Virus record (IMG/VR): IMGVR_UViG_3300032397_001280
Coordinates: 1 to 32,982 of that record
Source: a virus
Reading direction: 5' to 3' (one strand)
Length of the DNA stretch: 32,982 bases
The notes beneath the pieces are model-generated. The model saw only the letters and a program-made list of their open reading frames with translations. It searched no databases and had not been told where the DNA came from. How positions within the stretch are numbered: position 1 is the first letter of the stretch; the number at the start of each line of letters is the position of its first letter. The position numbers were made by a program, and so were the translations under genes. Positions 5,936 through 31,501 of this stretch are shown here, piece after piece.

Positions 5936-6666
5936 TTAGTTTTTCAGGGGGTAAGGATTCTACTGCGGTACTTCTAAGATTATTAGAAGAAAAGAAGCCC
6001 ATAGATGAAATTGTGTTCTTTGATACAGGCTGGGAATGGCCGGAAGTATATGCTCATGTTAAAAAAGTAGAAGCATATATAAAAAGACCTATTGTATGGC
6101 TTACTTCTGAAAAATCATTTGATTGGTGGATGTTCGAAAAACCTTGTGCAATTGGTAAAGGAAAAGGATTCCCCCGATTTAATTTAAGATGGTGTACAGG
6201 ATTAAAACAAGATACTATTCGTAAATATTTAGTTGATAAAAAACCTTATATTAATTATATCGGTTTTACAAAAGGCGAAGAATACAGAATGGAAAGATAT
6301 ACCAAAGATACAACAAAAAGATTTCCTTTAATAGAATGGGGAATGACTGAACAGGATTGTTTAGATTATTGTAAGGCAAAAGGATTTAATTTTGAAAATT
6401 TATATAAGTATATGAATAGTACTTCTTGTTGGTGTTGTCCTTTACAACCCCTTACAGCATTAAGGAATGTATATAAGTATTTTCCTGATTTGTGGAAAGA
6501 ATTATTGAGGATGCAAAGTAAAACTAAAACCCCATTTAAAATTGACCACAAGAAAGATAAACAAGGAAAAAATATTTGCCCAGGAATTTATGTTACTGAT
6601 TTAGATACTCGTTTTAAGAAAGAAATTAAAGATGGAATTTTTGATAAAAAATTAGGGGGGAAATAA
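5923..6666 (+). CDS. PP-loop ATP pyrophosphatase, PAPS-reductase-like (first of two)
   Basis: A 247-residue protein beginning almost directly with the PP-loop SGGKDST (residues 8-14), followed by the DTGWEWPE strand and RWCTGLKQ, as in the CysH/PAPS-reductase superfamily. A cysteine cluster CWCC near residue 168 could hold zinc or an Fe-S cluster. PP-loop enzymes adenylate or reduce sulfate/carbonyl substrates; phage members are common but mostly untested. Possible roles are sulfur metabolism or a nucleic-acid modification. Start ATG lies within the PolB tail, with purine-rich AAAGAGAGAAAGAAAAA upstream. Its neighbour is a divergent paralogue, suggesting the two act together. Specific substrate unknown. 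Confidence 0.82.
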   Translation: MYYIVSFSGGKDSTAVLLRLLEEKKPIDEIVFFDTGWEWPEVYAHVKKVEAYIKRPIVWLTSEKSFDWWMFEKPCAIGKGKGFPRFNLRWCTGLKQDTIRKYLVDKKPYINYIGFTKGEEYRMERYTKDTTKRFPLIEWGMTEQDCLDYCKAKGFNFENLYKYMNSTSCWCCPLQPLTALRNVYKYFPDLWKELLRMQSKTKTPFKIDHKKDKQGKNICPGIYVTDLDTRFKKEIKDGIFDKKLGGK

Positions 6667-11184: not shown

Positions 11185-11811
11185 ATGAATAATATTCTGT
11201 TATTTTCAGACCTTCATATTACACAATCCTCACTTAAAGAATGTGCCTTGATTCTTGAAGAAATCGGCATGTTGGCAAATAAGTATAATGTCGATACTTT
11301 AATTAATCTTGGAGACACCTTTGATTCTCTCAAACCTACATCCGCAGAATTAGATGTCTTTGCTACCTTTATTAGAAGACTCAATAAAAAAATTATTATC
11401 CTAGCAGCAAATTCACATGAATCAGAAACTGAAGAAAGAAGCATCTTAAATCATTATGGTATACTTTCTAATAATGTACAAGTAGTCAAAGAATATAAAG
11501 ATGGTAATCATCTTTATTGCGGACATTTTTCAATTAAAGAATCTAAAAGTAATTATGATGCCAAACTTTCAAAAGAAGAATTTAAAAATTATTTATATGT
11601 TTTTTTGGGACATATTCATAGTTATCAATTAATTCCAAAAAATATTGTGCATTTAGGAAGTTGTAGGTATGTTAATTTTGATGAAGCCGAAGATAAGGCA
11701 AAAATCGTGGCTCTTATTACAGACTACGGAACCGAGACTGAAAAAGTGCATTTTATGAAACTCAAAACACCAATAAAAATGATAGAGATAATATTAAAAA
11801 ATGAAAACTAA
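11185..11811 (+). CDS. SbcD/Mre11-like metallophosphoesterase (nuclease subunit)
   Basis: A 208-residue calcineurin-like phosphoesterase. Metal-site motifs are FSDLH (Asp9, His11), NLGDTFD (Asp44), ANSHE near 75-79 in place of the usual GNHD/E, a CGHFS histidine near 114 and LGHIH (His143, His145). Family members pair with an SbcC/Rad50 ATPase (gp47/gp46 in T4) to cut hairpins and process double-strand ends. The ATPase partner is at 13070, three genes downstream. No capping domain follows, so it is a minimal form. The C-terminus overlaps the HNH gene by 11 bases. Role: end resection in phage recombination. Confidence 0.85.
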   Translation: MNNILLFSDLHITQSSLKECALILEEIGMLANKYNVDTLINLGDTFDSLKPTSAELDVFATFIRRLNKKIIILAANSHESETEERSILNHYGILSNNVQVVKEYKDGNHLYCGHFSIKESKSNYDAKLSKEEFKNYLYVFLGHIHSYQLIPKNIVHLGSCRYVNFDEAEDKAKIVALITDYGTETEKVHFMKLKTPIKMIEIILKNEN

Positions 11812-12388
11812 AATTTGTAGTAGATGTAAAATAGAATTACCTATAACCGATTTTTGTAAAGGTAATGATAAAGACGATTTAAATTACCACTGTAAAAATT
11901 GTCAAAATAAATATTATAAAATACATCATAAACCGATAATTAAAAAAAAGAAGATTTGTTTAATTTGTAAAAAAGATTTTATTCCACCTGGTAATCATCA
12001 AAAATTTTGTTCTAAAGAATGTGGATTAATTGGGAATAAAAAACAAAGAAAAAATCATAGATTGACTCCCAATGTAATTTTATCTATAATAAAACAAAAT
12101 ATAATCAGAAGGAATATCGAATTAAATATAACAAAAGAAGATTTTATTAATTGGTATAATTCTCAAGTCAAAACTTGTCATTATTGTAAAAGAACTTTAG
12201 AAGAAATAAATTGTGATATAAAAGAAAAAAGATGTAAAAATAGATTATCAATAGATAGAAAAAATAATAACAAGGGATATGTATTAAATAATATAGTATT
12301 AGCTTGTTATAGGTGTAATACAATTAAGGGGGAATATTTTACGGAGCAAGAAATGTTACGAATAGGTAAAACAATTTATCAAAAATAG
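11801..12388 (+). CDS. HNH endonuclease, distinct subtype
   Basis: A 195-residue protein. Two N-terminal zinc-knuckle pairs (CSRC with CKNC; CLIC with CSKEC) precede a helical stretch and a C-terminal HNH domain: CHYC, a LSIDRKNNNKGYV block where Asp takes the place of the double His, NIVLACYRCN. This is not the HHIDY type seen in the other HNH genes and resembles the endonuclease-VII-like/small HNH group. It sits between the SbcD-like gene (11-base overlap) and an unknown gene, splitting the SbcD/SbcC pair. Most likely a free-standing homing endonuclease. Cut site unknown. Confidence 0.8.
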   Translation: MKTKICSRCKIELPITDFCKGNDKDDLNYHCKNCQNKYYKIHHKPIIKKKKICLICKKDFIPPGNHQKFCSKECGLIGNKKQRKNHRLTPNVILSIIKQNIIRRNIELNITKEDFINWYNSQVKTCHYCKRTLEEINCDIKEKRCKNRLSIDRKNNNKGYVLNNIVLACYRCNTIKGEYFTEQEMLRIGKTIYQK

Positions 12389-12398
12389 AGGTAACTAA

Positions 12399-12800
12399 AT
12401 GCAAGACAACAACTTAGAACAAAATAGGCAAAATTCCAATAGTAAAGATGATACCCTATCTAAAGATAATTGCTCTATGGGGCTAAAACAGGGCAAAAAT
12501 GCCTTAAATTTAGGTCAATGTCAGACTTATTTAGACAAATTAGACCCAAATACTAAAGTAAAGGTTAAAATCTTGGATTTCGAATCCTTCAGACAGTTCC
12601 TTCCTCTGTGTCATAAATATAGTTCAAAATTCGAAGTATTTAAATATTCTACAGAGTTCAATGTGGTTTCGGATTTAGTACCGACAAGTGCGAAAACTGA
12701 AATGAATAGTTTTAAAGAATCTTTTACTAATTGGCTCAAGAATCAAAAAATAGATATAAAAATTATGGAGATACTAAAGAAAGAAATAGACAATGATTAA
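12399..12800 (+). CDS. Hypothetical protein in the SbcCD operon
   Basis: A 133-residue soluble protein. The first ~40 residues are polar and probably disordered (rich in Asn, Gln, Ser, Asp). The rest (from about residue 45) looks folded, with a KVKVKILDFESFRQFL core and a charged C-terminal helix. It starts 10 bases after the HNH gene and overlaps the next gene by 8. No motif is recognised. Its place between SbcD- and SbcC-like genes suggests a recombination or replication accessory, but this is context only. Confidence 0.65.
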   Translation: MQDNNLEQNRQNSNSKDDTLSKDNCSMGLKQGKNALNLGQCQTYLDKLDPNTKVKVKILDFESFRQFLPLCHKYSSKFEVFKYSTEFNVVSDLVPTSAKTEMNSFKESFTNWLKNQKIDIKIMEILKKEIDND

Positions 12801-15427: not shown

Positions 15428-15535
15428 ATGTTAGTATATTTATTAATGATAATTTGTATAATAGGACTTACAATAGTAGTTTTATGTCTATCAGAAGTTC
15501 TTTCTGAAGAATATAAAGGAGATAAGAATGATTAA
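15428..15535 (+). CDS. 35-residue single-span membrane peptide
   Basis: ATG at 15428 follows AGGAGGAAAATAGTA, a strong Shine-Dalgarno. Residues 2-23 form one hydrophobic span (LVYLLMIICIIGLTIVVLCL), followed by a polar acidic tail (SEEYKGDKND). An upstream in-frame extension to 15350 exists but would sit inside the previous gene and lacks a ribosome site. It overlaps the deformylase start by 8 bases. Its position directly before a deformylase and an intramembrane protease makes it a candidate substrate or partner. That is inference; it may simply be a small membrane effector. Confidence 0.65.
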   Translation: MLVYLLMIICIIGLTIVVLCLSEVLSEEYKGDKND

Positions 15536-15998
15536 ACCGATTATAACTAATATAAAAGAACTTCGGAAACCCTGTCTGGAAGTTACTAAAGAAGATGATA
15601 TTAAATCTATTGTTCAGGACTTAAAAGATACATTAGAATCAAAAAAGTGTGTTGGACTTACAGCAAATCAAATAGGATTTAATAAAAAAATTTCTTACAT
15701 AAAGATACCCAAAACTATTGATAAAAATAAACAGGTACAATACGGTGAATACGTTCTTATTAATGCTAAAATTATAGAAAAAGAAAGACTCATTAAAGTT
15801 AAAGGAGAATCCTGTATGAGTTTTCCTGGGATTGATGTTATTACTCGTAGATATGTTTTTTGTATTGTGCAGTATTATAATGAAAAAATGGAATTACAAA
15901 CAGGAGCCTTTCAAGACCTAGAATCTATATGCGTGCAGCATGAACTAGACCATCAAAACAGTATAACTATCTTTCAAAGAAAGTGGGTGTCCAAATGA
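15528..15998 (+). CDS. def: Peptide deformylase
   Basis: A 156-residue enzyme with all three family motifs: GLTANQIG (43-50, motif 1), ESCMS (94-98, motif 2, metal ligand Cys96) and QHELDH (137-142, motif 3, His138, Glu139, His142). It removes the formyl group from nascent chains. Length suits the compact phage/cyanophage and bacterial type I/III-like enzymes with no long C-terminal helix. Motif 1 has Thr-Ala-Asn where Ala-Ala-Pro/Thr is common, and motif 2 has Ser-Cys-Met for Gly-Cys-Leu. Start GGAGATAAGAATG is good. Its TGA overlaps the next ATG, tying it to the S2P gene. Confidence 0.92.
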   Translation: MIKPIITNIKELRKPCLEVTKEDDIKSIVQDLKDTLESKKCVGLTANQIGFNKKISYIKIPKTIDKNKQVQYGEYVLINAKIIEKERLIKVKGESCMSFPGIDVITRRYVFCIVQYYNEKMELQTGAFQDLESICVQHELDHQNSITIFQRKWVSK

Positions 15999-16579
15999 TA
16001 ATTTGTTTTATAGTCAGTTTAATTATTATTACAATTGTGCATGAAGCAGCTCATCTAATTGTAGCTAAGAAGTGTAAATGTGGTGTTATTAGATATAGTA
16101 TAGGATTTGGTAAGCCTGTTTTATTAAGTAAAAAAATAGGGAATACAATATATCAATTAACTCCCTGGTTATTTGGAGGATATTGTGAATTAAAAGGAGA
16201 GTTAAAAGCAACAAAAATAAAAAATGCCTTTATAAATCTTCCTTATAGAAAGAAACTAGCAATTGCAATAGCTGGATGTGCAGTAAATATGATTTCTGGA
16301 GCTATTATAATGTACATCGGATTAAGATTTCAAATTTATAACTTATATTACTTTGGATATCTGTCATTAGCATTAGGCGTAACTAATTGGTTTATACCGA
16401 TACCTTGTTTAGATGGAGGTTATGCTTTATGGTATCCTATTTTAACAAGAAAATTCGGTCTTAAAAAAGGTACTAAAATTTTTGCCAAAGCAGTAAGAAT
16501 TAGTTTTATAATAGTAATAATATTAAATATAGTTTGTATTCCTTATTTGATATATTTATTTAAAGTTGGGAGAATATAA
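15995..16579 (+). CDS. Site-2-type (M50) intramembrane metalloprotease
   Basis: A 194-residue multi-pass membrane protein. HEAAH (residues 16-20) lies in the first transmembrane helix and PIPCLDGG (Leu139-Asp140-Gly141) in a later one; together these are the metal site of M50 proteases (RseP, SpoIVFB, Eep). No PDZ or CBS domain is inserted, so it is a minimal core. It should cut single-span substrates within the membrane. I chose ATG 15995 (ATGA overlap with the deformylase stop) over an upstream GTG. M50 proteases are rare in phage genomes as far as I know. The small membrane peptide at 15428 is a possible substrate by proximity only. Confidence 0.85.
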   Translation: MIICFIVSLIIITIVHEAAHLIVAKKCKCGVIRYSIGFGKPVLLSKKIGNTIYQLTPWLFGGYCELKGELKATKIKNAFINLPYRKKLAIAIAGCAVNMISGAIIMYIGLRFQIYNLYYFGYLSLALGVTNWFIPIPCLDGGYALWYPILTRKFGLKKGTKIFAKAVRISFIIVIILNIVCIPYLIYLFKVGRI

Positions 16580-16794
16580 TGAGAAAATTAATACTTAATT
16601 TATTAGAAAAGATTCCATATCGTACATCATTTGGACTTTCTCTTGCAGATGTATTAAAAGTAAGATATTATCAAAAGTATAGCAAATATCATATTAAATG
16701 CTTATGCGGAGGAACTATAGTTACATACGGAATACCACCCGATGGTTGGGAAACTGTATGCATTGATTGTGAATTTATCTACGACGAAGATTAG
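16579..16794 (+). CDS. Small zinc-ribbon protein
   Basis: A 71-residue protein. A helical N-terminus (ILNLLEKIPYR) precedes a zinc ribbon: CLCGG at about 42-46 and CIDC at about 61-64. It starts on the last base of the S2P stop (TAATG). The spacing of the two Cys pairs suits a single zinc-binding beta-hairpin fold. Target unknown. It may be an adaptor or a transcription/translation-binding protein. Confidence 0.68.
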   Translation: MRKLILNLLEKIPYRTSFGLSLADVLKVRYYQKYSKYHIKCLCGGTIVTYGIPPDGWETVCIDCEFIYDED

Positions 16795-16801
16795 GAGTTA
16801 A

Positions 16802-16972
16802 ATGGAAAATCTTATTTGTTTAAAGTGTCAACATTGCTACGAAGTTTGCAGGACAGGTTATTTAAGACATTATTGTAAATATTTTAAGTATTGGTTACTA
16901 CCGAATGATAAAAAAGAACCCCAAAGAACTACAGAATGTAATCAGTTAGGAGGAGAAAATGGGATTGAATAA
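16802..16972 (+). CDS. 56-residue Cys-rich small protein
   Basis: A short frame starting 7 bases after the previous stop, with AGGAG upstream at suitable spacing (AGGAGTTAAATG). Seven cysteines occur: CLKCQHCYEVC in the first 16 residues, one in HYCK and one in TECN. It is likely a metal-binding knuckle protein. Its end overlaps the M17 gene start by 14 bases, and the Shine-Dalgarno for that gene lies inside it, so the two are coupled. It is too short to have been picked by length-based calling. No family recognised. Confidence 0.62.
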   Translation: MENLICLKCQHCYEVCRTGYLRHYCKYFKYWLLPNDKKEPQRTTECNQLGGENGIE

Positions 16973-17852
16973 AGTTATTGCTAATGCGAAGAAATTGATA
17001 GATTTACCTTATAATCAATTCAATCTAGAAAATTATTATAAAGTTTTACTTGGTTATGGACTTCGTACAATTTCTGTAGATACAAAAGAAAACCAACCTA
17101 TTAAATTAATGTCAGGTAATAATTTTTATGCAAGAATACAAACTTTAAATTATCAATTTAATAAAACACCAAAAATTTATATTATAGGAAAAGGAATTTT
17201 GTTTGATTCTGGTGGATTGAATTTAAAACCAAGTAGCAAACTAGATAGTATGACTGATGATAAAGCGGGTATGATTATTGCTTTAAGTGTAGCCAACTAT
17301 CTTGGAGGTAATGTAGTTGCTTATTGTCCTGTAACCACAAATTTTATTCAGACATCTAAAATAACTCCTGGTGATATTATTTCTATAGGTAATAAAAAAG
17401 TAAAAGTTACAGATACAGATGCTGAAGGAAGATTGATTTTGGCTGAAGCGATTAGTAATTTAAATGTCTCAAAAAATGATATAATTATCACTGTCGCTAC
17501 ATTGACTGGAGCAGTTGGCTATGCCATAGGCGATAAAGCCACTGGAATATTTTCTGATAGTCCAAAATTATTAGGAGATTATTCAGAAGAATCTTTTAAA
17601 ACTGGAGAATTAGCATGGGGATTACCTATGTTTGATTACATGCAAGATTACTATAAAAATAAACCTATAAAAAATCATATAGAAGAATTTAAAGGTGGAG
17701 CGAGTCAAGGTGCTATGTTTATTAAACAATTTATAAAATATCCTGAAAACTGGATACATCTTGATATTGCTTATAGTGCTTTTGGTAAAGATGGAAAAGC
17801 AAATGGGGCACCTATTAAAACTTTGATTAATTTTATTAAAAAATTACAATGA
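16959..17852 (+). CDS. M17 leucyl-aminopeptidase catalytic domain
   Basis: A 297-residue protein carrying the M17 core. GKGILFDSGG (Lys78, Asp83), Lys90, Asp101 and the signature DTDAEGRL (Asp154, Glu156, Arg158) keep the same spacing as the two-zinc and catalytic residues of bovine and E. coli leucine aminopeptidases. Full-length family members are about 480-500 residues; the N-terminal regulatory domain is missing, replaced by ~70 unrelated residues, so hexamer control may differ. It removes N-terminal residues from peptides. Start follows TTAGGAGGAGAAAATG, a very strong Shine-Dalgarno. It sits after deformylase and S2P and overlaps the next gene by 4 bases. Confidence 0.92.
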   Translation: MGLNKVIANAKKLIDLPYNQFNLENYYKVLLGYGLRTISVDTKENQPIKLMSGNNFYARIQTLNYQFNKTPKIYIIGKGILFDSGGLNLKPSSKLDSMTDDKAGMIIALSVANYLGGNVVAYCPVTTNFIQTSKITPGDIISIGNKKVKVTDTDAEGRLILAEAISNLNVSKNDIIITVATLTGAVGYAIGDKATGIFSDSPKLLGDYSEESFKTGELAWGLPMFDYMQDYYKNKPIKNHIEEFKGGASQGAMFIKQFIKYPENWIHLDIAYSAFGKDGKANGAPIKTLINFIKKLQ

Positions 17853-18382
17853 AAAATAAAAATATACTTGTAAAAATAGGAACATTTTTTATCCCCATTC
17901 TTGGAGGATTTTATGGGGCTTTAGCAGGGGCTGAGAATGGTAATAAAGCATTAAGAAGAATAATGATTCCTTTTATGTTATTTGGTTTAGCTTATCAACA
18001 AACAGAAAATCCATTAAGTATAACCATAATGACTATGTGCTTCTTTATTTCGATGGGTTATGGAATTCCTGGAACTGGAGATAATGGAAGTATATTGGGG
18101 AGATTTTATTATAATCTTTTTAATCAAAATCATCATTTGGCGGATGTATTTACTAGAGGAACAATAGGATTATTTATTGATTTATCATTAATCTCCATTT
18201 CTGTAATTAATCATAATTGGATAGTCTATGGACTGGGGTCTTTGGGAATAATTTTAACTAATGCTCTATTAAGTTGGAGAAATTTGGGGCAATATACTTT
18301 ATTTAATAAAAAATTAAATTGGAGCGAAACTTTAACATGGGGATTAATTACTTTATTTGCAGTATTAATTATTAAACTATGA
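17849..18382 (+). CDS. Multi-span membrane protein, function unknown
   Basis: A 177-residue protein with about five hydrophobic segments. Loop blocks GAENGNKALRR (about 27-37) and GIPGTGDNGSILGRFYYN (about 73-90) look conserved and resemble, from memory, an uncharacterised phage/bacterial membrane family. A His-containing FNQNHHLAD stretch follows. It overlaps both neighbours by 4 bases (ATGA) and lies between the M17 peptidase and a transporter, which suggests a shared membrane role. No function assigned. Confidence 0.65.
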   Translation: MKNKNILVKIGTFFIPILGGFYGALAGAENGNKALRRIMIPFMLFGLAYQQTENPLSITIMTMCFFISMGYGIPGTGDNGSILGRFYYNLFNQNHHLADVFTRGTIGLFIDLSLISISVINHNWIVYGLGSLGIILTNALLSWRNLGQYTLFNKKLNWSETLTWGLITLFAVLIIKL

Positions 18383-19548
18383 AAATAAATACAAAATTAT
18401 TATGGATTTACATACTTTCTAGTGCCATATATTTTACTCAAGGCATAGAAGGTCTTCCAGGGTTAAGTCTATTCTTCTATCTTAAAGAAACTTTAGGCTT
18501 TACCCCTGAGAAGATTATGTATATTGGGTCTATTACTGGACTAGCTTGGTTGATAAAACCGTTGTGGGGTTATTTATGTGATAATTTTCTGAGTAATAAA
18601 AAATGGATAATCCTATCATTATTAGGAAGTATAAGTATTGCTGGATATTTTGGATTAGTTTCTTTTCTACCTTTATCACTTATGGTGATATTATTATCAC
18701 TAGCAAGTTTCAATGCAGCTTTAAGAGATGTTTCAGTAGATGGAATAATGTGTATAGATGGTAAAAAAGCCAAAGTTTGCGATAAAATACAGGCAGTTCA
18801 GTGGATTTCTATAACTATCGCAGCAATCTTCGTAGGGCTTGCGGGCGGATACATAGCAGACCATTTTACCTATAAAATAGCCTATTTATACCTTATTCCT
18901 GTGTATTTAGTCATTATAGGGGTCGTATTGAGGTATAAAACGTCTGTTCTACGGAATAGAACAACTGTACCATTATTGAGTACAATTTGCTCTTATAAAG
19001 AGTTATTTCTTAATAAAAAGTTCTTATTTGCATGTTTATTCTTATTTCTATATAAATATAGTCCTTCTTTTGGAACTCCACTATCGTTTGTTGAAAGAGA
19101 CGTATTTAAATGGTCTGGACAGTGGATGGGAATTTTAGGAGCGATTGTATCTTGTTTTGAAATATTAGGAGCAATCATTTTCTTTAAATTATGTAAAAAA
19201 ATCAATATTAAAAAATGGCTTTATATTTCTGTATTTTTAGGTGCAGTTACTACATTATGTTATCTCAAATTTACTCCTGTAACTGCGGTAATTTATGGAG
19301 TATTATTTAGTGTATTAGGAATGTTTATTCATTTAATAGTGATGGGATGGATGGCTAATTCTACTTTGCCCGGAAAAGAAGCAACTAGCTTTGCTCTGCT
19401 ATGCTCCATTAATAACCTAGCAGGAACCGCTTCAGGACTATCAGGAGCCTTTCTTTTCCCCAAAATAGGTCTCCATTGGCTTATTATCGCATCAGCTTTA
19501 ACTTCATTCGCATGTCTGCCCCTGATTAAGAAATTGGAGATAAAATGA
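18379..19548 (+). CDS. MFS transporter, BT1/folate-biopterin-transporter-like
   Basis: A 389-residue protein with about 11-12 transmembrane segments. The N-terminus YFTQGIEGLPGLSLFFYLKE then LAWLIKPLWGYLCDNF matches the signature arrangement of the folate-biopterin (BT1) branch of the major facilitator superfamily, and LRDVSVDG matches its fourth-helix Asp-Gly motif. Substrate could be a pterin, folate or other small compound or peptide; it cannot be fixed from sequence. The 3' part is visibly richer in C and G than neighbouring genes, suggesting recent acquisition from a host. It overlaps both neighbours by 4 bases. A complete transporter is unusual for a phage. Confidence 0.8.
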   Translation: MKINTKLLWIYILSSAIYFTQGIEGLPGLSLFFYLKETLGFTPEKIMYIGSITGLAWLIKPLWGYLCDNFLSNKKWIILSLLGSISIAGYFGLVSFLPLSLMVILLSLASFNAALRDVSVDGIMCIDGKKAKVCDKIQAVQWISITIAAIFVGLAGGYIADHFTYKIAYLYLIPVYLVIIGVVLRYKTSVLRNRTTVPLLSTICSYKELFLNKKFLFACLFLFLYKYSPSFGTPLSFVERDVFKWSGQWMGILGAIVSCFEILGAIIFFKLCKKINIKKWLYISVFLGAVTTLCYLKFTPVTAVIYGVLFSVLGMFIHLIVMGWMANSTLPGKEATSFALLCSINNLAGTASGLSGAFLFPKIGLHWLIIASALTSFACLPLIKKLEIK

Positions 19549-20542: not shown

Positions 20543-21620
20543 AGAAAAAACTATCTGTTTAGGTATGATAGTAAAAAATGAAAAATTGAATATTAAACAG
20601 ACTTTAGAAACTGCCAAACCTATAATTGATTATTGGGTCATAGTTGATACTGGTAGTACAGATGATACTATAGACATAATAAAAGAAACTATGAAGGGAA
20701 TTCCAGGAGAAGTAATTCAGAGACCCTGGGTAAACTTCGGATATAATAGAAGTGAAGTTGCAATGCTAACTAGAAATAAAGCAGATTATTCTATAATGTT
20801 GGATGCTGATTTTTTAGTTAGATTAAATGGATTTAATAAAAAAGATTTAGTCGATGACCAATATGATGTTATAATTAAATGGTTTGGTACGAGTTTTTAT
20901 AATCCTTTATTATTTAGTAATAGATTAGCCTGGAAAAGTGTAGGATGTGTACATGAATATTGGTATGCTGAAGGTGTACAAACACGTAGTAAGTTAAATA
21001 CATTGTATTTTGACCATGATAGACATGGACCCGCTCGCCCTAAAGGAATATATGACTTAAAATTATTAGAACAAGGAATTATAGATGAACCGAATAATTC
21101 TAGATACCATTTTTATTTAGCAAATACACTTAGGGATGTAGGTCAATATGAAAGAGCAATTGAAATATTTGAAAAAAGAGTAGAGATGAAAGGTTGGGAT
21201 GAAGAAGTATTTTATTCAAAATATCAAATTGGATTATGTTATGAATTATTAGATGAGATAGAAGCAGCAAAAGCATACTATCTCAATGCATGGGAATATA
21301 GACCTACTAGAGCAGAACCATTGTGGAAAATAGCTGCTATTTGTAGAAAAAAGGGAGAGTATCACCAAGCATATTTATTTGCTAATAAAGGAATGGAAAT
21401 ACCTTATCCAAATGATATTATATTCGTAGATAGACCAACTTATGATTATGTTCTACGATTTGAAAGGAGTATTGCTGCATCTTGGATAGGAAAATTAGAA
21501 GAAGCTATTACAGATTGTAAAACAATTGATGCAATGAATGATATTCCTGAAGATGTTAGAAAAGTAAATAAATCAAATCTTAAAATTAATGAAGATGCAT
21601 TACAGAGGAGGAAAAAATGA
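20535..21620 (+). CDS. Family 2 glycosyltransferase with C-terminal TPR repeats
   Basis: A 361-residue protein. The N-terminal GT-A domain has LGMIVKNE (9-16), VDTGSTDDT (37-45) and DAD (90-92) for metal and nucleotide-sugar binding. A HEYWY block near 140 suits the acceptor side. From about residue 185 come TPR-like helices (NSRYHFYLANTLRDVGQYE, KYQIGLCYELLDEIEAAKA, PLWKIAAICRKKGEYHQA). GT2-TPR fusions occur in bacteria and large viruses and modify proteins or glycans; the TPR part probably binds an acceptor. It overlaps the ClpP-like gene by 4 bases. Acceptor unknown. Confidence 0.86.
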   Translation: MNKEKTICLGMIVKNEKLNIKQTLETAKPIIDYWVIVDTGSTDDTIDIIKETMKGIPGEVIQRPWVNFGYNRSEVAMLTRNKADYSIMLDADFLVRLNGFNKKDLVDDQYDVIIKWFGTSFYNPLLFSNRLAWKSVGCVHEYWYAEGVQTRSKLNTLYFDHDRHGPARPKGIYDLKLLEQGIIDEPNNSRYHFYLANTLRDVGQYERAIEIFEKRVEMKGWDEEVFYSKYQIGLCYELLDEIEAAKAYYLNAWEYRPTRAEPLWKIAAICRKKGEYHQAYLFANKGMEIPYPNDIIFVDRPTYDYVLRFERSIAASWIGKLEEAITDCKTIDAMNDIPEDVRKVNKSNLKINEDALQRRKK

Positions 21621-22210
21621 TAAGAAAAGACGAACACGAAGATGTATGCAAAAAAGAAGACCGTTATGGAGAAGAGTTCTATTTCAAAATTTTAAATAAA
21701 AATAGATATATTCTTCTTTATGATGAGATTAATAATGTTTCTTCTGATATTGTTGTTTCTAAACTAAGAGCTATGGACATAATAAATCATAAGCCTATTT
21801 ATCTAGAAATTAATAGTCCAGGAGGTTCTGTATCAGATGGTATGAGCATTATTAATGCTATGGAACATATTAAATCTCCAGTTTATACTATTATTTCTGG
21901 GCAGGTGTGTTCTATGGCTGCTTTGGTCAGTATATGTGGAGATAAAAGATTTATTTACACAAACTCTTACTGGATGCAACACTCTACTTCTGATATTGTA
22001 GGTGATTATATTCAATATATAAAAGATAGAACTAAGTTTCTTTGCGAATTTGAACATCGTACAGAAAAGATATTAAAATTACATACTAAATTATCTAATA
22101 ATGATATTATGAAGATTAGGACTGGAGAATTATGGCTTTCAGCAGACCAATGTCTCGAAAAAGGTATTGTAGATACGGTAATTTCATTTAAATCTAAAAA
22201 AGGGAGATAA
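21617..22210 (+). CDS. ClpP-like serine protease
   Basis: A 197-residue ClpP/crotonase-fold protease. LEINSPGGSVSDGM (63-76) is the oxyanion strand, GQVCSMA holds the nucleophile Ser99, and MQHS gives the catalytic His122. The closing WLSADQCLEKGIVD matches the ClpP C-terminal region; the third acid is not clear. Phage ClpP-like proteins often mature capsids, but this one is not near capsid genes, so a regulatory role or partnership with a host Clp ATPase is as likely. Start overlaps the GT2 stop after a GAGGAGG Shine-Dalgarno. Confidence 0.86.
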   Translation: MIRKDEHEDVCKKEDRYGEEFYFKILNKNRYILLYDEINNVSSDIVVSKLRAMDIINHKPIYLEINSPGGSVSDGMSIINAMEHIKSPVYTIISGQVCSMAALVSICGDKRFIYTNSYWMQHSTSDIVGDYIQYIKDRTKFLCEFEHRTEKILKLHTKLSNNDIMKIRTGELWLSADQCLEKGIVDTVISFKSKKGR

Positions 22211-22747: not shown

Positions 22748-22940
22748 ACTTAAAATAAGAATTAGTTGGGGTATTCTTTTATTGTCAGCATTTATAATTC
22801 TAGTAACTTGTGATTGGAAAAATTTAAAATACTCATTTAATTTATTAAAAGAATTACATAGATTAATAAAAAAGAACTCTATATATAAAGTAGATGGAGA
22901 TTTTGTATTGATTCATAAAACACAGATGAAAAAATTATAA
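22734..22940 (+). CDS. Small single-span membrane protein (GTG start)
   Basis: From GTG 22734 (GGAG five bases upstream) the product is 68 residues. A basic start (DRNKLKIRI) is followed by one membrane span (WGILLLSAFIILVT) and a Cys that could be a lipobox-like residue (VTC), then an amphipathic helix and a beta-like tail. A longer start at 22698 would overlap more of the upstream gene. The orientation by positive-inside would leave the C-terminus outside. Function unknown; it lies between a phosphoesterase and a GT2. Confidence 0.6.
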   Translation: MDRNKLKIRISWGILLLSAFIILVTCDWKNLKYSFNLLKELHRLIKKNSIYKVDGDFVLIHKTQMKKL

Positions 22941-23563
22941 TGAATAATCTAGCCATACTTATTACCACATTTTTAAGAGATAATCTACTTTATAAGTGTA
23001 TCCAGTCTATAGTAGATAATTATCCAAAAGATTGTATGGTTTTAATCGCAGACCAGGGCTATTCTGACTTTGAAAAAGATATCACTATGGATTATTATAG
23101 GTCTCAAATGTCTTTAGAGTATTATCCTCTTGCTTTTGATTGTGGATTATCAGTAGCACGTAATTTCTTAGTTCAAAAAGCATTTGAAATGAATATTCCT
23201 TATTGTTTAATTATGCCCGATAGTATTCAATTTACAGAGTCTTATAACTTTGAACCATTATTCGTAGATTTAAATAATAATATTATTATTAATTTTAAAT
23301 TAAAAAATGTTGAACCCACACCATTGAAAGATATTTTCTTAGCTAAAACAAATCTTATAAGTGATTTATGGGATAATGAGCTAAAAATATATGAGTATCA
23401 GTTAGCTTTTACAGAATGTATTAAAAGAGGTTATAAAATTGTATGGAATGAAGATTATAATTTTAAAAAAATAAATTCTCGGTCTAATGAAGAATATCAA
23501 ACATACTGTAAAAGAATTAAAGAATATAAAAAATTAACGGAGCAAAAACTAAAATGCATGTAG
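22940..23563 (+). CDS. Family 2-type glycosyltransferase, compact
   Basis: A 207-residue GT-A fold protein. LAILITTFLRDNLL opens the nucleotide-binding fold, followed by VLIADQGYSD, GLSVARNFLV and CLIMPDS where a DxD-like site would be expected (here Pro-Asp-Ser, a weak match). The order fits GT2 enzymes of the galactosyltransferase/chondroitin-synthase type. Because the DxD is degenerate, activity is less sure than for the GT2-TPR gene. It starts by TAATG overlap and overlaps the next gene by 10 bases. Likely works with the sugar genes around it. Confidence 0.72.
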   Translation: MNNLAILITTFLRDNLLYKCIQSIVDNYPKDCMVLIADQGYSDFEKDITMDYYRSQMSLEYYPLAFDCGLSVARNFLVQKAFEMNIPYCLIMPDSIQFTESYNFEPLFVDLNNNIIINFKLKNVEPTPLKDIFLAKTNLISDLWDNELKIYEYQLAFTECIKRGYKIVWNEDYNFKKINSRSNEEYQTYCKRIKEYKKLTEQKLKCM

Positions 23564-23721
23564 GAAAATGGTTACTAGTGAAACACGAAGGATTGGTACA
23601 AAGAGGAATAGTTGAACAATTTTTTATGGAAGATTTAGATATACGTTTAGATAACGGAGAATTAATAAGAAGAAAATACTGGGAAGTAAGGAAAATCGAT
23701 GAAGAAAAAGAAGATAATTAA
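23554..23721 (+). CDS. 55-residue SH3-like hypothetical protein
   Basis: A short frame from ATG 23554, inside the GT2 end (KCM shared in another frame), to 23721. The pattern GKWLLVKHEGL, RGIVEQFF, DIRLDNGELIRRKYWEV suggests a small five-stranded SH3-like barrel, as in the 19545 gene. It overlaps the amidoligase start by 23 bases. GGAG lies upstream in AACGGAGCAAAAACTAAA. No function recognised. Confidence 0.62.
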   Translation: MHVGKWLLVKHEGLVQRGIVEQFFMEDLDIRLDNGELIRRKYWEVRKIDEEKEDN

Positions 23722-24388
23722 AAAAGAAGAGATTAAATTAGTCGATATTAAGCGTATTAGGTACGCTCCAGAACTGGAAATCGAATTACCAGCTAAAATC
23801 GATGCTGATAAACTCATTGATAGAGGTAAAACTCTAAAGGGCTGGGAAATCAAAGCAGACGGGTCTTTAAATAATGGTATTGAACTTTCTCCAGAAAATG
23901 CTAATCATCTATATTATAATGAAGATTCTTTAATGCAAATTAAAGAAGTATTAGCATTAGTGAGGGTTTATAAAGGAAAGGCAATGCCTACCTGCGGACT
24001 TCATATTCACATAAATGTTCGTAATTTAACAGATAGACAAATTTTAACCATTATTAAAGAATGGGTTCATAAGCAGCGTTTTGTAGCTAAAAAGTTCCAT
24101 GTTAATAAAGACCGTATTGAAAATACTTGTAAACTATTACCTAAGAGTGAGTTACATAAATTAACAGAAAAGGAAATACATTCTTTCAGAAATAATTTAC
24201 GTACTACTTTTAGAAATTATTCTTATCTTGAAGAAAAATATTATAGTCTTAATGCTTCTCATTTACCAAAGACTGATTACCAGACAATCGAGTTTAGATG
24301 TTTTTCTGGAAGTGTTAATTATAGAGAAATTAAAGAAGCTATATATTTTGTCTTAAACTTTATTAAGGAGTCGTTAGAACGTGAGTAA
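23699..24388 (+). CDS. Amidoligase (glutamine-synthetase-fold COOH-NH2 ligase)
   Basis: A 229-residue protein matching the amidoligase-2 family. A PELEIEL strand (Glu25, Glu27, Glu29) gives the first metal ligands, WEIKADGSL follows (49-57) with GIELSP, then CGLHIHINV (His102, His104), a helical middle, and TIEFRCFSGSVN (196-207). The fold joins carboxylates to amines using ATP, and family members are predicted to make peptide tags or crosslinks. The basic N-terminal ~15 residues are extra. Its neighbours are an SH3-like peptide, glycosyltransferases and, further upstream, a ClpP-like protease. The substrate is unknown. Motif set makes the family call solid. Confidence 0.82.
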   Translation: MKKKKIIKKEEIKLVDIKRIRYAPELEIELPAKIDADKLIDRGKTLKGWEIKADGSLNNGIELSPENANHLYYNEDSLMQIKEVLALVRVYKGKAMPTCGLHIHINVRNLTDRQILTIIKEWVHKQRFVAKKFHVNKDRIENTCKLLPKSELHKLTEKEIHSFRNNLRTTFRNYSYLEEKYYSLNASHLPKTDYQTIEFRCFSGSVNYREIKEAIYFVLNFIKESLERE

Positions 24389-24956
24389 AACTAAAGGTAA
24401 AAATAATCCTAACTATAAACATGGCAATACATTAATTAAACATTATTGCTCATGCGGTAATGAAATAAGTTATAATACATTTAAGTATGGTAAAAAACAA
24501 TGTAGAAAATGTTATTTAAAAAATTCAATAAAAAAATATTATTGTATAAATTGTGGAAAAAAATTAAGTAAAAATACTTGTCAACGATGTTACTCTTGTA
24601 ATACCAAAGGTAAACGTAATCCTATGTTTGGTAAAGAAGGATACAATTTAAATAAACATCTATCAAATAAAACAAAAAGAAAATTAAGTCTTTCACATGG
24701 AGGAACGGGTATCCCCTATGAATTCAAAGATTATCCAGCAGTATTTTATTATATAAGAATAGATATTCGTAAAAGAGATAATTACGAGTGTCAGTTATGT
24801 CATAAAAAAGGTAATACCATTCATCCTATTGATTATGATAAAGAAAATAATCAAAGAAAAAATTTGATAACTTTATGCCCTAGATGTCATACCAAAACAA
24901 ATACTAATCGTGATTATTGGTATGCGTATTTTACTTATCTAGTGGAAAGGGAATAA
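24381..24956 (+). CDS. HNH endonuclease with probable loss of the general-base His
   Basis: A 191-residue HNH protein. It opens with GKNNPNYKHG, then zinc knuckles (CSC, CRKC, CINC, CQRC), then CQLC and NLITLCPRCH. The HHIDY motif reads IHPIDYD (His148-Pro149): the second His, the general base of HNH enzymes, is replaced by Pro, while the metal-binding His remains. It ends NRDYWYAYF like the TerL-adjacent HNH. Start is GTG after GGAG. It overlaps the amidoligase gene by 8 bases and shares its stop with the next ATG (TAATG). Probably a homing endonuclease that is inactive or impaired. Confidence 0.78.
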   Translation: MSKTKGKNNPNYKHGNTLIKHYCSCGNEISYNTFKYGKKQCRKCYLKNSIKKYYCINCGKKLSKNTCQRCYSCNTKGKRNPMFGKEGYNLNKHLSNKTKRKLSLSHGGTGIPYEFKDYPAVFYYIRIDIRKRDNYECQLCHKKGNTIHPIDYDKENNQRKNLITLCPRCHTKTNTNRDYWYAYFTYLVERE

Positions 24957-25096
24957 TGATTAAAAACTACAAAAAATGTGTATACAGAGATACTTCTAGA
25001 TGTGTATTGTTTTCAGCCTGTGAAGACTGTTATTATTATAAAGAATGTAAAGAAAAAACTAAAAAATCTGTAACTAAGAGAAAAAAAGATGCCTAA
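24956..25096 (+). CDS. 46-residue Cys-rich small protein
   Basis: A short frame starting by TAATG overlap with the HNH stop and overlapping the GT9 start by 8 bases. Five cysteines (KKCVY, SRCVL, SACEDC, KECKE) suggest a zinc site, and a Lys-rich tail follows. It fills the gap exactly between two longer genes. No family recognised. Confidence 0.58.
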   Translation: MIKNYKKCVYRDTSRCVLFSACEDCYYYKECKEKTKKSVTKRKKDA

Positions 25097-25925
25097 AGAA
25101 CTTCATTTAAATAGACCAGGAGCCATTGGCGATATCATTATGACTCTTATGGCAATCGACAAGTATAAAATACTTAATCCTAATGATAAGATTGTTTATT
25201 ATTGCGACCCAAGTTGGATGGATATCCCCGCAATTTGTCCTGCAGTAGATGAGATTAGAAGTAGTGCAGATTTCAATATTAAGACCCCAGGGGCACAAAA
25301 TTTGTATGGTTATGGTAAGATTCCATTAATTCATCACTTAACATGGTATTTTGGTAAAGAACTTGGACTAGATGACCATTTTTATAGATACGGTTTTGTT
25401 CCTATTTTTAAACCTTCTCAAAATAAAGAATTTAATTCTCTAATCACTTCTGAAAAGAAAATAATCACCCTACATTGTACTGCTGGTTGGTCGCCTTATA
25501 AAAATTGGGATATGAATAATTGGCAAGAAGTAGTAGACCGATTCTGTACACTAGAATATACAGATTATGTCTTGGTACAATTGGGGACAAAAAAAGACCC
25601 ACCCTTGAAAAACATAGTGGATATGAGAGACAAAATTACCTTAGTAGAATGTATACAATTAATTAATATGGCTAGATTACATTTGGGTGTAGATAGTTTT
25701 TCTAATCATGCAACTGCATTATTACCTTATACACCATCAGTTATTCTATGGGGTTCTACACATCCAAATATATTTGGTTATGGTCATAATATTAATATTT
25801 GGAAACCTTTAAAATGTTCACCCTGTAATAAATTAATGAATGATAAATGTCCTTTAGAACCTTATCCTTGTATATCTGCAATAACAGTAAACGAAGTATT
25901 TACTGAACTATTAAAATTATTATAA
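25089..25925 (+). CDS. Family 9 (heptosyltransferase-like) glycosyltransferase
   Basis: A 278-residue GT-B enzyme. The N-terminal loop PGAIGDIIMT matches the GT9 nucleotide-binding start. The second half has LHCTAGWSPYKNWD, GVDSFSNHATAL and VILWGSTHPNIFG, the donor-sugar site of ADP-heptose:LPS heptosyltransferase-like proteins. A Cys cluster near the end (CSPCNKL, CPL, PCI) is common in some GT9 members. It is shorter than cellular heptosyltransferases (~320-350). It closes the plus-strand block just before the terminator. Acceptor unknown; a host or virion glycan is likely. Confidence 0.84.
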   Translation: MPKELHLNRPGAIGDIIMTLMAIDKYKILNPNDKIVYYCDPSWMDIPAICPAVDEIRSSADFNIKTPGAQNLYGYGKIPLIHHLTWYFGKELGLDDHFYRYGFVPIFKPSQNKEFNSLITSEKKIITLHCTAGWSPYKNWDMNNWQEVVDRFCTLEYTDYVLVQLGTKKDPPLKNIVDMRDKITLVECIQLINMARLHLGVDSFSNHATALLPYTPSVILWGSTHPNIFGYGHNINIWKPLKCSPCNKLMNDKCPLEPYPCISAITVNEVFTELLKLL

Positions 25926-25934
25926 TTAAGTAAA

Positions 25935-25976
25935 TAAAAAAATACCCAGTACATTAATTTATATTGGGTATTATTA
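25935..25976. terminator. Bidirectional intrinsic terminator between convergent blocks
   Basis: AATACCCAGT (25941-25950) pairs with ATTGGGTATT (25963-25972), a 10-base stem with one G-T wobble and a 12-base loop. An A-run precedes and a T-rich stretch follows, so it can end transcripts from both the plus-strand GT9 side and the minus-strand tail side. It lies in the 70-base convergent gap. Confidence 0.75.
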
Positions 25977-27876: not shown

Positions 27877-28401
27877 TTAATTCTCCTTACTTTTTATTAT
27901 ATATGCAAAATACAAATACCAACAATCTCTGTTATAATTTACTTTAATATTACATTTATGACATAATATAATCAAATTCTTTTCTTTACAGTTAGTCTTA
28001 TCATAATCAATATGATGAACATGTTTTGCTTTTTTATGACATAATTGACATTTATAATTATCTCTTTTACGAATTGATTCTTTTAATTCTAAATTAAAAA
28101 GATATGAATAACCTTCCTTTGAAATACCGTTTAACCAATTTGGATTATTTTTACCCTTCATAGTGCAAGAGTGGCATCTTTTTGATGTCCATATAATTTT
28201 TTTACCACAAACACAATATTTTTTAACTAAACTTATACCATCCTTCCAGTTACCATTATTTTTACCTCTATTTAGTTTATGTCCTTTTTTAAATTCTGTA
28301 CTTGGAGAGCAATGTTTTCCTTTAAGAGAAATTTTATTAGCTTTTCCAATTTTTATTTTATGTTCTTTGGTTAGGTGTCTTTTTTTCATACTATTCACCA
28401 T
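27877..28401 (-). CDS. HNH homing endonuclease with NUMOD3-like start
   Basis: A 174-residue protein. The first part, HLTKEHKIKIGKANK, is like the NUMOD3 DNA-binding motif of homing endonucleases. A zinc knuckle (CVC with CHSC) and NNPNWLNG linker follow, then an intact HNH: CQLC, HVHHIDYDK, NLIILCHKCN, ending NRDCWYLYF. It belongs to the same family as the 1384, 9287 and 24381 genes. It overlaps the end of the large tail protein gene by 11 bases and sits inside the tail operon, the usual situation for a free-standing homing endonuclease. A second ATG four codons in is possible. Confidence 0.85.
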   Translation of the reverse strand: MVNSMKKRHLTKEHKIKIGKANKISLKGKHCSPSTEFKKGHKLNRGKNNGNWKDGISLVKKYCVCGKKIIWTSKRCHSCTMKGKNNPNWLNGISKEGYSYLFNLELKESIRKRDNYKCQLCHKKAKHVHHIDYDKTNCKEKNLIILCHKCNIKVNYNRDCWYLYFAYIIKSKEN

Positions 28402-31400
28402 GTGATTGATAACTTATTGAACGAGAGTAATAACGACTATTTTCTAATGTTAAACTAACCGTAAAACTAGACATATTATAAGTTATTCCAGTTATATTCA
28501 TTGCCTCATCTGTAATTCCTGCAATGTAAATTCTATTTGTTAAATTAATACCGTAAAAACATAATGCATCTAATGTAATTTCAATAGTACCTTTTATTTT
28601 TTTATCACAAGACTTACTTAACGTCCAGTCTGCTATATCCTGAGCAAAAGCTGTATCATCCCATGTAGGAATAATTGTATCTATTCCTGTAGCATAATTA
28701 TGTTGAACCATTCCAATTTGTATAGATAAATTTGATAAATTTAAATCTTTAATAATAGTATCTGGATAAGTTCCCATTTTAGCAGTAAAGAACATTAAAG
28801 GATTTGATATATCAGTTTCTGGGTCGTCAGTTGGGTCTAAAGTATAAGTATAATAATTCTTTTTCCATAAAACTACCTTAACTATTGGTGCTCTGACCGC
28901 AGTACATTCTCCATTAGCACCAGTTTGATATAAAAACATCGGTTCGCTAAGTTTTAATATTCCATTTTCATAATCAATAGTAAATCCTTCTTTTAATACT
29001 GTTTCTAATGATAAATTTAACGGACCAATAAATCCAAAAGCATTTCCTACATTATAAATTTCTACTCTAGGTGGATATTGGTCTGACCACGATGATAATT
29101 CTGGATTTAAATAAGGCATGTCATATTTTGTGAAAACATCAGAATAATCACCTGCTGGATTACGATGGTCAAATCCATATCCCGATGATGTATTATTTGA
29201 CATTAATTCTAAACTTCTATCCCATGCTGGAGTAACAAATTGAACATAACTCGCATAATTATATCCAGTATATTTATGAGTACGATTGTCCTTTTGAACA
29301 ATTTTGTTTCCCATCTGTACTCTAAATTTATTTACTATATCTTCTACAGATTCATCAAAAGAATGATTTATAACATCATAAAGATTTATATTTGCTCCTA
29401 ATGCTTGTCTTTTTAACTCAATGACCGACCCTTCCCCAGCAGACCATAATTTCTTAGTTCCATCCACATCATAAAACCATCCATAATTACCCATCTCTTT
29501 GATAAGATTTGTAATTGCTTCTGATTTACCTACTGAAAAGTTATCCATCGTTTCTGGACAGAAATTACCAGGTCCTGGAGTCCAACTATGCTGTGTAGTT
29601 AAAGCAGCAGCTAATGTTTCGTAATAAAGTTCTTTATTGTCTGTAGGTTTATGACCAATATGATAATAAACATTTGATTTATTCTGTTTCCAATATTCGT
29701 CTTGGCAGTTTATTCTCATTTTTTCTGGGTCTTCAGAAGGTGAAATGCTGGTAATGTATCCAGAAAATAATACCCAATTATTATATTTAATTTCTATTGT
29801 TGCTTCCATTGCAGGTTTCGTTGTATCATAAGCTCGACCTAAATCAAAAGTTGCTGTATGAGAAGAATCTAAATCTTTAGAAATACTGATAGAATTAACA
29901 TCTACATCGGTCTGTTCTGCTCCAGCAATATAAACTTTGATGTATCCTTTTCCTAAAGATTGTAGAATACCACTTGCAGATTTTTGCCAACTATATAAAA
30001 ATCTTATATCATTTACTACATTATTTAAAGTTAATTTTTGAGTTCTAAAATCATTTACTGCATCAGAAATAACTGATTTGCATGTATTAATAAAATTATT
30101 AACATCTGATAAATTCTGTATAACTGTATTTACTTTATTATTTATATCTGAAAGTACATCTTTGACAAAAGTTATTTTATTAATAATATCATATAATACT
30201 CCAACACATATTTTAGCGTCAGATAGGATAGTTTTCTGTATAACAGCTAAAATAGATGTATCGGATAGAATAGTTTTATTATATTCATCTACTAATTTAG
30301 CATCTGATAAAATAGTTTCTTGTATATCTAATGCCAGTATTTTAGCATCTGACTGAATAGTCTTCTGTATAATAGAAGTAATTAAAGCATCTGATAGTAT
30401 TGTTTTCTGATTGTCTACAGATTTTATTTTGGTATCAGATAGGATAGTTACTGTTTTTGTAGGATTTAAAAAAATTGAATCAAAATAAATAGTATAAGGA
30501 TTAGATGAACCTGTAGTATATTCTACGTAAAGATATTGAGAATCAGAAATACATACTGATGGATATTTATCTACTGCTATATCACTCGTTATATCTACTT
30601 GAGATTCCCAAGCAGAACCATTCCATTTTCTATAGGAAATATTATATTGAGTTCCTGTATAATCTGTCCAAATAATAACTGGATTATTTGCTACAATTGA
30701 TAATGCAGGGTCTTGGTCATTTGAATTATCTGATAATAAAGTACCAGAATCCCAAGAACCTGTATAATTATATATTTTTATTCCTGAACTTGTTCTTACA
30801 GCAGCAAAGATATTAGAATCAGAAATTTTGCAAGCTCCTAAAGAATATGAACTATTGGTAATTCCTGAAGCAATATCAGTAGGTGCGTTCCAAGATTTAG
30901 CAATATCATTCCATATAAATTGTTGTAATTTACCACCAGCAGTAGTTACTATACACCATATAGTAGACCCTACTTCAAAACATCTTGTTCCGCTAAGGGT
31001 ATCTGTTAAAGTATAATAATTATTATTCCAACTAGCTCCATCATCCGTAGAATAAAATCCGTAAAGTCTCCAAGCTCCACTATATCCATAAAAGAACGTT
31101 ACAAATAATTCACCACTTGCACGTTTAACTAAAGAAACATAATAACAATAATTACCCGCAATAGTTCTTCTAGTACCAACGGTCCAAGAACCACCGCTAT
31201 AAGTTAATTTATATAAATAAATTCCTCCAGAACCGCCACCATAAAAAACTGTATAAATATTATCACTACCATCAATAATAACATCAAAATCGCCATCAAC
31301 TGAATAATTAGATGATTCTACTGTAGTCCAAGAAGAATCCCAAGTTACTCCATTATCTGAAGAAGTTTTATATCTTAAATGAGCATCGGCAGCATCTGCA

Positions 31401-31501
31401 AAAAGAACAAGAACTCCTCCAGAAGTTTTTACTATTTTATGTTGATATGAATACCGAGTAGATGCATCTATTGATGTAGTTCCTACATTTACTATTGCCA
31501 T
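28391..31501 (-). CDS. Chimeric tail protein: Asp-box propeller, tandem repeats, baseplate-hub-like C-terminus
   Basis: A 1036-residue protein in three parts. Residues ~1-345 have BNR/Asp-box motifs SSDNGVTW (47-54) and STDDGASW (near 148) and repeated Trp/Tyr-rich strands, typical of a sialidase-like beta-propeller. Residues ~350-435 hold six repeats of the type KTILSDAKI with 14-15 residue period, then a helical linker. From ~505 on, VYIAGAEQTDVDVNSISIS, WVLFSGYITSISPSEDPE and later parts resemble phage hub proteins (gpD/gp27-like). AGGAG precedes ATG. Inference: a hub that also carries a glycan-binding head. The hub call is from pattern memory. Confidence 0.65.
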   Translation of the reverse strand: MAIVNVGTTSIDASTRYSYQHKIVKTSGGVLVLFADAADAHLRYKTSSDNGVTWDSSWTTVESSNYSVDGDFDVIIDGSDNIYTVFYGGGSGGIYLYKLTYSGGSWTVGTRRTIAGNYCYYVSLVKRASGELFVTFFYGYSGAWRLYGFYSTDDGASWNNNYYTLTDTLSGTRCFEVGSTIWCIVTTAGGKLQQFIWNDIAKSWNAPTDIASGITNSSYSLGACKISDSNIFAAVRTSSGIKIYNYTGSWDSGTLLSDNSNDQDPALSIVANNPVIIWTDYTGTQYNISYRKWNGSAWESQVDITSDIAVDKYPSVCISDSQYLYVEYTTGSSNPYTIYFDSIFLNPTKTVTILSDTKIKSVDNQKTILSDALITSIIQKTIQSDAKILALDIQETILSDAKLVDEYNKTILSDTSILAVIQKTILSDAKICVGVLYDIINKITFVKDVLSDINNKVNTVIQNLSDVNNFINTCKSVISDAVNDFRTQKLTLNNVVNDIRFLYSWQKSASGILQSLGKGYIKVYIAGAEQTDVDVNSISISKDLDSSHTATFDLGRAYDTTKPAMEATIEIKYNNWVLFSGYITSISPSEDPEKMRINCQDEYWKQNKSNVYYHIGHKPTDNKELYYETLAAALTTQHSWTPGPGNFCPETMDNFSVGKSEAITNLIKEMGNYGWFYDVDGTKKLWSAGEGSVIELKRQALGANINLYDVINHSFDESVEDIVNKFRVQMGNKIVQKDNRTHKYTGYNYASYVQFVTPAWDRSLELMSNNTSSGYGFDHRNPAGDYSDVFTKYDMPYLNPELSSWSDQYPPRVEIYNVGNAFGFIGPLNLSLETVLKEGFTIDYENGILKLSEPMFLYQTGANGECTAVRAPIVKVVLWKKNYYTYTLDPTDDPETDISNPLMFFTAKMGTYPDTIIKDLNLSNLSIQIGMVQHNYATGIDTIIPTWDDTAFAQDIADWTLSKSCDKKIKGTIEITLDALCFYGINLTNRIYIAGITDEAMNITGITYNMSSFTVSLTLENSRYYSRSISYQSHGE
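30216..30447 (-). repeat. Six tandem 42/45-base repeats encoding KTILSDAKI-type units
   Basis: On the plus strand, copies of a GCATCTGATAxxATAG-like core begin near 30216, 30258, 30300, 30345, 30387 and 30432, with spacing 42, 42, 45, 42 and 45. They encode in-frame units of 14-15 residues (core Thr-Ile-Leu-Ser-Asp-Ala-Lys-Ile) in the large tail protein. All spacings are multiples of three. Confidence 0.8.

Follow-up and report, generated by a model that had tools for sequence, protein, structure and literature searches.

A 229-residue open reading frame with an ATG start, carried by the 32,982-nucleotide stretch of viral DNA analysed here over its whole length (IMG/VR record IMGVR_UViG_3300032397_001280; hereafter the window), appears to encode a minimal carboxylate-amine ligase, stand-alone and dependent on ATP and Mg, that is probably of the gamma-glutamyl type and serves a small molecule or peptide. 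We place the probability of this reading at about 0.6, on the basis of family membership, the fold of a predicted model, invariant residues, purifying selection and the presence of the gene in every related record searched.

Family, fold and conservation of the short amidoligase

The reading frame matched the Amidoligase_2 family (PF12224; E 3.7e-16, 60.2 bits against a curated Pfam cut-off of 22) and the PHROG family named 'amidoligase enzyme' (phrog_2443; E 3.6e-18). Both matches lie far beyond chance and bear out a preliminary description of this DNA, which had called the gene an amidoligase from its ELEIEL, GLHIHI and IEFRCF motifs; all three are present, at residues 25-30, 100-105 and 197-202 (Table 1). 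When the window protein was aligned with six relatives (identity 54% for one of them and 20-27% for the other five), 11 columns were invariant (E25, D54, S56, E62, C99, G100, H102, H104, N185, E198 and R200 in window numbering), and the residues that are invariant in Amidoligase_2 (E, D, E, H-x-H, N and E-x-R) are all found in the window protein. The position of S56 is a threonine in one close relative in the subfamily alignment. An AAGGA sequence lies six bases before the start codon, which, together with the 23-base overlap with the preceding 55-residue gene, suggests that translation of the amidoligase is coupled to that of its neighbour. The window amidoligase is a genuine, conserved and minimal member of its family whose catalytic site is apparently intact.

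Table 1. Positions of the amidoligase gene, its motifs and its surroundings in the window
Feature	Position	Strand	Evidence
ClpP-like serine protease; a neighbour that we do not count with the unit	21617..22210	+	PF00574, E 7.3e-35
GT2-type glycosyltransferase, overlaps the 55-residue gene	22940..23563	+	PF00535, E 1.4e-5
55-residue neighbour gene, sharing 23 bases with the start of the amidoligase gene	23554..23721	+	alignment A2
Short amidoligase gene, catalytic domain only	23699..24388	+	PF12224, phrog_2443, model with GS/GCS fold
ELEIEL, first-strand acidic motif, residues 25-30	23771..23788	+	E25, E27, E29 invariant in 9/9 subfamily rows
DGSL...GIELSPE, residues 54-66	23858..23896	+	D54, E62, P65 invariant in 9/9 subfamily rows
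GLHIHI, H-x-H motif, residues 100-105	23996..24013	+	H102 and H104 invariant
IEFRCF motif, residues 197-202	24287..24304	+	E198, F199, R200 invariant in 9/9 subfamily rows
HNH endonuclease gene behind the amidoligase	24381..24956	+	phrog_1271, E 8.1e-12
GT9 (heptosyltransferase-like) gene, ending the forward run	25089..25925	+	PF01075, E 7.3e-9
Weak hairpin where the forward genes meet the convergent tail genes	25941..25972	+	-11.9 kcal/mol, z -2.13, 8/200 shuffles as good

An AlphaFold2 model of the amidoligase, built from nine sequences (mean pLDDT 79.4, pTM 0.77), was compared with known structures using VIA-align 2. The best match was YbdK (1r8g; Z 10.3, 188 residues, rmsd 3.7 Å), and the glutamine synthetase (GS) of the bacterium P. 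aeruginosa and a plant glutamate-cysteine ligase were matched at Z 10.0 and 8.9, respectively. All 50 of the matches listed, with Z values of 8.3-10.3 over 168-195 residues, fell within the group formed by GS, YbdK-like proteins and glutamate-cysteine/glutathione ligases. What the window amidoligase shares with YbdK, gamma-glutamylcysteine ligase and GS is the fold of the model, whereas its sequence identity to them is 8-11% and a sequence search of the PDB returned no match beyond chance level (E 1.5). Foldseek ranked GS and YbdK first among PDB entries, above E 0.001, with no match at E≤0.001; among the predicted viral structures of BFVD the model had 39 matches at E≤0.001, and those with functional names were amidoligases except for two, named LIM and glutamine amidotransferase. 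These comparisons support a GS/GCS fold for the modelled protein and agree with the membership of the glutamine-synthetase-fold family that the preliminary description had stated. Given this fold and the full set of family-invariant residues, ATP-dependent formation of an amide or isopeptide-like bond would be the expected chemistry.

The Amidoligase_2 proteins of Arthrobacter phage Salgado and Pseudomonas phage UFV-P2 have the same domain, invariant residues and predicted fold as the window protein, which differs from most full-length relatives examined in its length (229 as against about 320-390 residues). The usual gene partners of phage amidoligases were not found beside the window gene.

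A scan with the subfamily alignment (the family-wide alignment A5 was too diverse to scan the collection) identified 18 IMG/VR records with a relative 36-81% identical over the matched part, 14 of them 40-110 kb in size; the subfamily census does not include L014 (345 residues, 26% identity). The records compared in detail have tail or replication genes in common with the window, except for the 16.6-kb locus of L004, where the amidoligase is the sole gene that matches any window protein. It is among the window genes common to all five large records compared, at 53-73% identity, and it was present in all nine related records searched, a count that partly reflects selection, as most records, eight of these nine included, were found through their amidoligase. 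The ninth, G009, was first reached via the 55-residue protein and carries an amidoligase too. Pairwise dN/dS values against L001, L003, L004 and L008 were 0.077-0.119 (dS was saturated against L002), and the gene is therefore under strong purifying selection: it is a conserved and constrained gene that a group of uncultured phages has in common, rather than a passenger. In cultured phages, 108 records hold distant homologues, all below 60% identity, with 40 matches listed at 23-30%. Two scans of the genomes of 84,980 species yielded no cellular relative, the scanned patterns being short ones that distant relatives could escape.

In two near-identical records, L012 and L013, the amidoligase gene (4780-6444 in each) contains a LAGLIDADG intein and reads as one 554-residue frame that includes the insert. 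The insertion site falls between the second histidine of GLHIH and the residue that matches I105 of the window protein, corresponding to 24010/24011 in the window. The insert begins with cysteine, ends with HN and is followed by cysteine, and it matched LAGLIDADG_3 (E 2.9e-16), with weak, sub-threshold Pfam matches to Hint/intein-splicing families; it is presumably spliced out. Inteins commonly sit at the active sites of conserved enzymes, and the location of this one thus independently supports a functional centre at the H-x-H motif. We found no paper in the open-licence literature with an amidoligase intein in its title. The same pair of records differs at a second gene: the MFS transporter gene of L012 (1390-3480) is split by an HNH-like reading frame at 1634-2377, whereas that of L013 is whole (2284-3480).

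Gene neighbourhoods and alternative readings

The preliminary description had named a ClpP-like protease and glycosyltransferases near the amidoligase, and Pfam matches confirmed the ClpP-like, GT2 and GT9 genes of Table 1; the glycosyltransferase operon of the window also holds a TPR glycosyltransferase and a hexapeptide transferase, and it adjoins tail-fibre genes. No HNH gene was found at the corresponding position in L001, L002, L003, L004 or L008. The hairpin behind the GT9 gene is a possible terminator for both the forward genes and the tail genes that converge on them.

Several other features of the window are recorded here. An SbcD/Mre11-like gene looks split: in each of five records a single protein is matched by both the frame at 11185-11811 and that at 12399-12800, and the frame between them (11801-12388) has the look of an HNH gene, like an insert of the intron or homing type. 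Genes for protein processing follow one another at 15528-17852, with a peptide deformylase at 15528 (read by eye from its motif), an M50 peptidase at 15983 (PF02163, E 3.4e-26) and an M17 aminopeptidase at 16959 (PF00883, E 1.1e-55). At 18379-19548 lies a BT1/folate-biopterin-type MFS transporter (PF03092, E 1.2e-16; TIGR00788 sub-threshold); homologues occur in all five large records compared, and a membrane transporter is unusual as a shared phage gene. The reverse strand encodes a large tail-fibre-like protein (28391-31501) with several near-repeats of the TILSDAKI type in its middle. Beside the tail-fibre genes of G004, at 52-62 kb, there is a cassette that varies among relatives (L029, L030): read by eye, its genes look like glycosyltransferase, PIG-L, WbqC-like and radical-SAM ones, depending on the relative, as if these phages swap surface-glycan genes there.

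In a census of the window and the 18 records, we then counted neighbours up to 6 kb from the amidoligase, as far as each contig reached. The amidoligase was called as a reading frame in 18 of these 19 (that of L056 is cut off at the contig end), and the near-copies L008/L009, L012/L013 and L047/L048 were counted as separate records. A GT2 homologue and an MFS transporter were each found in 7/19 records, a small membrane protein in five, a GT9 gene in four and classical GATase-II/ATP-grasp genes in one. On a tree of 16 of the 19 amidoligases, which leaves out the intein-bearing L012 and L013 and the contig-end L056, three changes are needed between glycosyltransferase and M14 neighbourhoods (the latter described below), and 56 and 68 of 500 shuffles were as low. 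The clustering of neighbourhood types on the tree is not strong, and the three changes indicate that the amidoligase gene has probably moved between sites. Because neighbourhoods vary within the subfamily, context is a weak guide to function.

Phage amidoligases often come as members of a gene set. Their founding sequence-based prediction is reportedly that of Iyer et al. in 2009 (doi 10.1039/b917682a). PMC10580990 and PMC11318856 cite that prediction for a role in changing the cell wall against superinfection in phiEco32; PMC10945688 proposes a role in nitrogen metabolism, and PMC7824862 and PMC12419801 cite the prediction and say nothing more. According to PMC3890496, the set in UFV-P2 comprises an amidoligase, a COOH-NH2 ligase, a class-II glutamine amidotransferase, an ATP-grasp ligase and a gamma-glutamyl cyclotransferase. 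The window gene could likewise belong to such a peptide-ligation set, suggested to alter the cell wall and block superinfection, with its partners merely absent from the window fragment. Partners do accompany amidoligases elsewhere: among seven annotated regions of cultured phages, L020 has the glutamine amidotransferase, ATP-grasp ligase and cyclotransferase, L023 and L026 have the glutamine amidotransferase and L025 has the cyclotransferase, while L021, L022 and L024 have no classical partner annotated (the amidoligase of L022 is labelled aminotransferase-like). The short relative of L050, of 38% identity, has a full-length amidoligase, a GATase-II-like gene and an ATP-grasp gene at a distance of 0.9 kb. 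The GATase-II, ATP-grasp and cyclotransferase genes of the set were partly found near the amidoligase in this distant record and not found in the window, itself a fragment. Against this explanation, ATP-grasp_3, GGACT and AIG2_2 had no match in any of the ten records of the window group, six of which span 77-110 kb, and GATase_4 matched one of the ten, below cut-off and at another locus. G007 does carry a long amidoligase with a GATase-II-like neighbour, but as a separate locus 39 kb from its short amidoligase. We consider membership of the classical set unlikely for the window gene; the short form may have started within that set and later become independent. Around the amidoligase cluster of L050 (2546-12474), about ten short reading frames start like KFKxGDKVKVV and perhaps form a small SH3-like family.

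Another reading takes its lead from the operon: the amidoligase would form an amide between a sugar acid of a glycan made by the operon and an amino acid or amine, decorating the host surface or the virion. The additional transferases of the window operon and the recurrence of GT2 and GT9 genes in the census are consistent with it. However, no tested glycosyltransferase was found within 6 kb in L011-L013, L047-L052, L054 or L055, and the three changes on the tree also count against this reading. Glycan decoration is an improbable role.

The preliminary description had proposed that the amidoligase could act with the ClpP-like protease and small partner proteins to tag or cross-link proteins or cell-wall peptides, which we took as tagging of proteins for degradation or cross-linking of them. 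PafA, which has the GS fold, ligates Pup to proteins and provides a precedent; ClpP, which lies 1.5 kb upstream of the amidoligase in the window, was present in eight of ten records searched. However, it lies within 6 kb of the amidoligase in 5/19 records, is 32 kb away in G004 and was undetected in the 77.6-kb record G009, although both carry the amidoligase; homologues of the amidoligase without ClpP or without the glycosyltransferases nearby also occur, which speaks against the neighbourhood half of the preliminary proposal. On this linkage we rejected ClpP as a partner, and the proposed functional unit did not hold up. The 55-residue protein, whose homologues are 39-50% identical and which has no Pfam or PHROG match at E≤1, fared somewhat differently. 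Its suggested pairing stood in 6/19 records, where its gene is directly upstream of the amidoligase, as it always is when near, with an overlap of 11-23 bases or, for the weakly matching protein of L008/L009, a 134-base gap. The pairing failed elsewhere: some 40 kb separate the two genes in G004 and G009, and the protein was not detected in G007 or G008. We therefore rejected it as an obligate partner. The pairing is a lineage feature (the window, G001, G002, G003, G005 and G006), and ClpP and the 55-residue gene are both near the amidoligase in two of the 19 records (the window and L010). Tagging or cross-linking of proteins by such a unit is very unlikely.

A part in DNA hypermodification, suggested by the amide-linked amino acids found on some phage thymidines, is the least probable reading: its usual entry enzyme is of the thymidylate-synthase family, and, as a weak argument against it, no gene of that family was found in the seven records searched.

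An M14-fold hydrolase beside the amidoligase in relatives

We favour a stand-alone carboxylate-amine ligase, and in some relatives its gene has a different neighbour. An M14-fold hydrolase is encoded within 6 kb of the amidoligase in six of the 19 records, or five distinct ones, as L047 and L048 are near-copies. Its gene lies directly behind the amidoligase, overlapping it by 1-19 bases, in G004, G009 and L051, where the protein has 246-254 residues; an HNH gene intervenes in L047 and L048, and one 170-residue reading frame in L052. Peptidase_M14 (PF00246) matched the proteins of G009 (E 3.8e-14) and L051 (E 9.7e-8); for those of G004 and L052 this match was below cut-off, and AstE_AspA_cat was better, also sub-threshold. 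All eight aligned rows keep H58, E61, H140 and E216, an arrangement that we take to be the zinc ligands and general base of M14 enzymes. A model of the hydrolase (pLDDT 78.3) matched a Shewanella metallopeptidase (2qvp) at Z 23.4 over 227 residues (3.0 Å) and REP34 at Z 22.0. The relatives' hydrolase thus shares the PF00246 match, fold and zinc-site residues with the M14 metallocarboxypeptidase and AstE-AspA families, but differs from them in being phage-borne, about 245 residues long and placed beside an amidoligase; its best NCBIfam match, N-acetyl-ornithine deacetylase, scored 47-54 bits, far under the cut-off of 400.

The association is not universal. In G005, L058 and L063 the M14-fold gene stands behind a small membrane protein without an amidoligase there, and a distance of 37-38 kb separates the amidoligase from the M14-fold gene in G005 and G003. 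It was not found in the window, G001, G002, G006, G007 or G008, of which G002, G007 and G008 span 86-110 kb, and so the hydrolase is not needed everywhere. Finding genes for a ligase and for a hydrolase of the opposite reaction side by side is suggestive and makes more chemical sense than the neighbours that the preliminary description had named, but the linkage at five distinct loci, none of them in the window, constitutes modest evidence. One tentative extension, which we regard as doubtful, is a reversible phage modification system in which the GS-fold ligase would write a glutamyl-type amide and the M14-fold hydrolase would erase it. Such a pair would work like tubulin glutamylation, with its ligase and M14 deglutamylase, although the ligase sides are unrelated.

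Proposed reaction and implications

As we found no biochemical assay or substrate of an Amidoligase_2 protein in the open-licence literature, and no paper there joining carboxylate-amine ligase, phage and gamma-glutamyl, we infer the bond and the substrate of the enzyme from the chemistry of its fold. ATP and metal would be bound through the E-x-E, E62, H-x-H and E-x-R residues, and a carboxylate, most likely the side chain of glutamate or a glutamyl compound, would be phosphorylated. Attack by an amine on the phosphorylated carboxylate would then yield an amide of the gamma-glutamyl type. The enzyme probably acts on a small molecule or short peptide, perhaps one from the host envelope, and not on a protein destined for ClpP; in relatives with a coupled M14-fold gene, the hydrolase would probably trim or reverse the product of the ligase.

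Amidoligases are common in phage annotation, and the Amidoligase_2 family itself is known; what is new here is the small size, the missing partners, the M14-fold linkage in relatives and the intein. The window protein is the smallest form that we met, a single domain without the usual partners, and would therefore be the easiest amidoligase to assay. The M14-fold neighbour makes a concrete prediction, namely that the hydrolase should cut the product of the ligase. If this is true, these phages would have a modification system important enough to them for an intein to settle at the active-site motif of its ligase.
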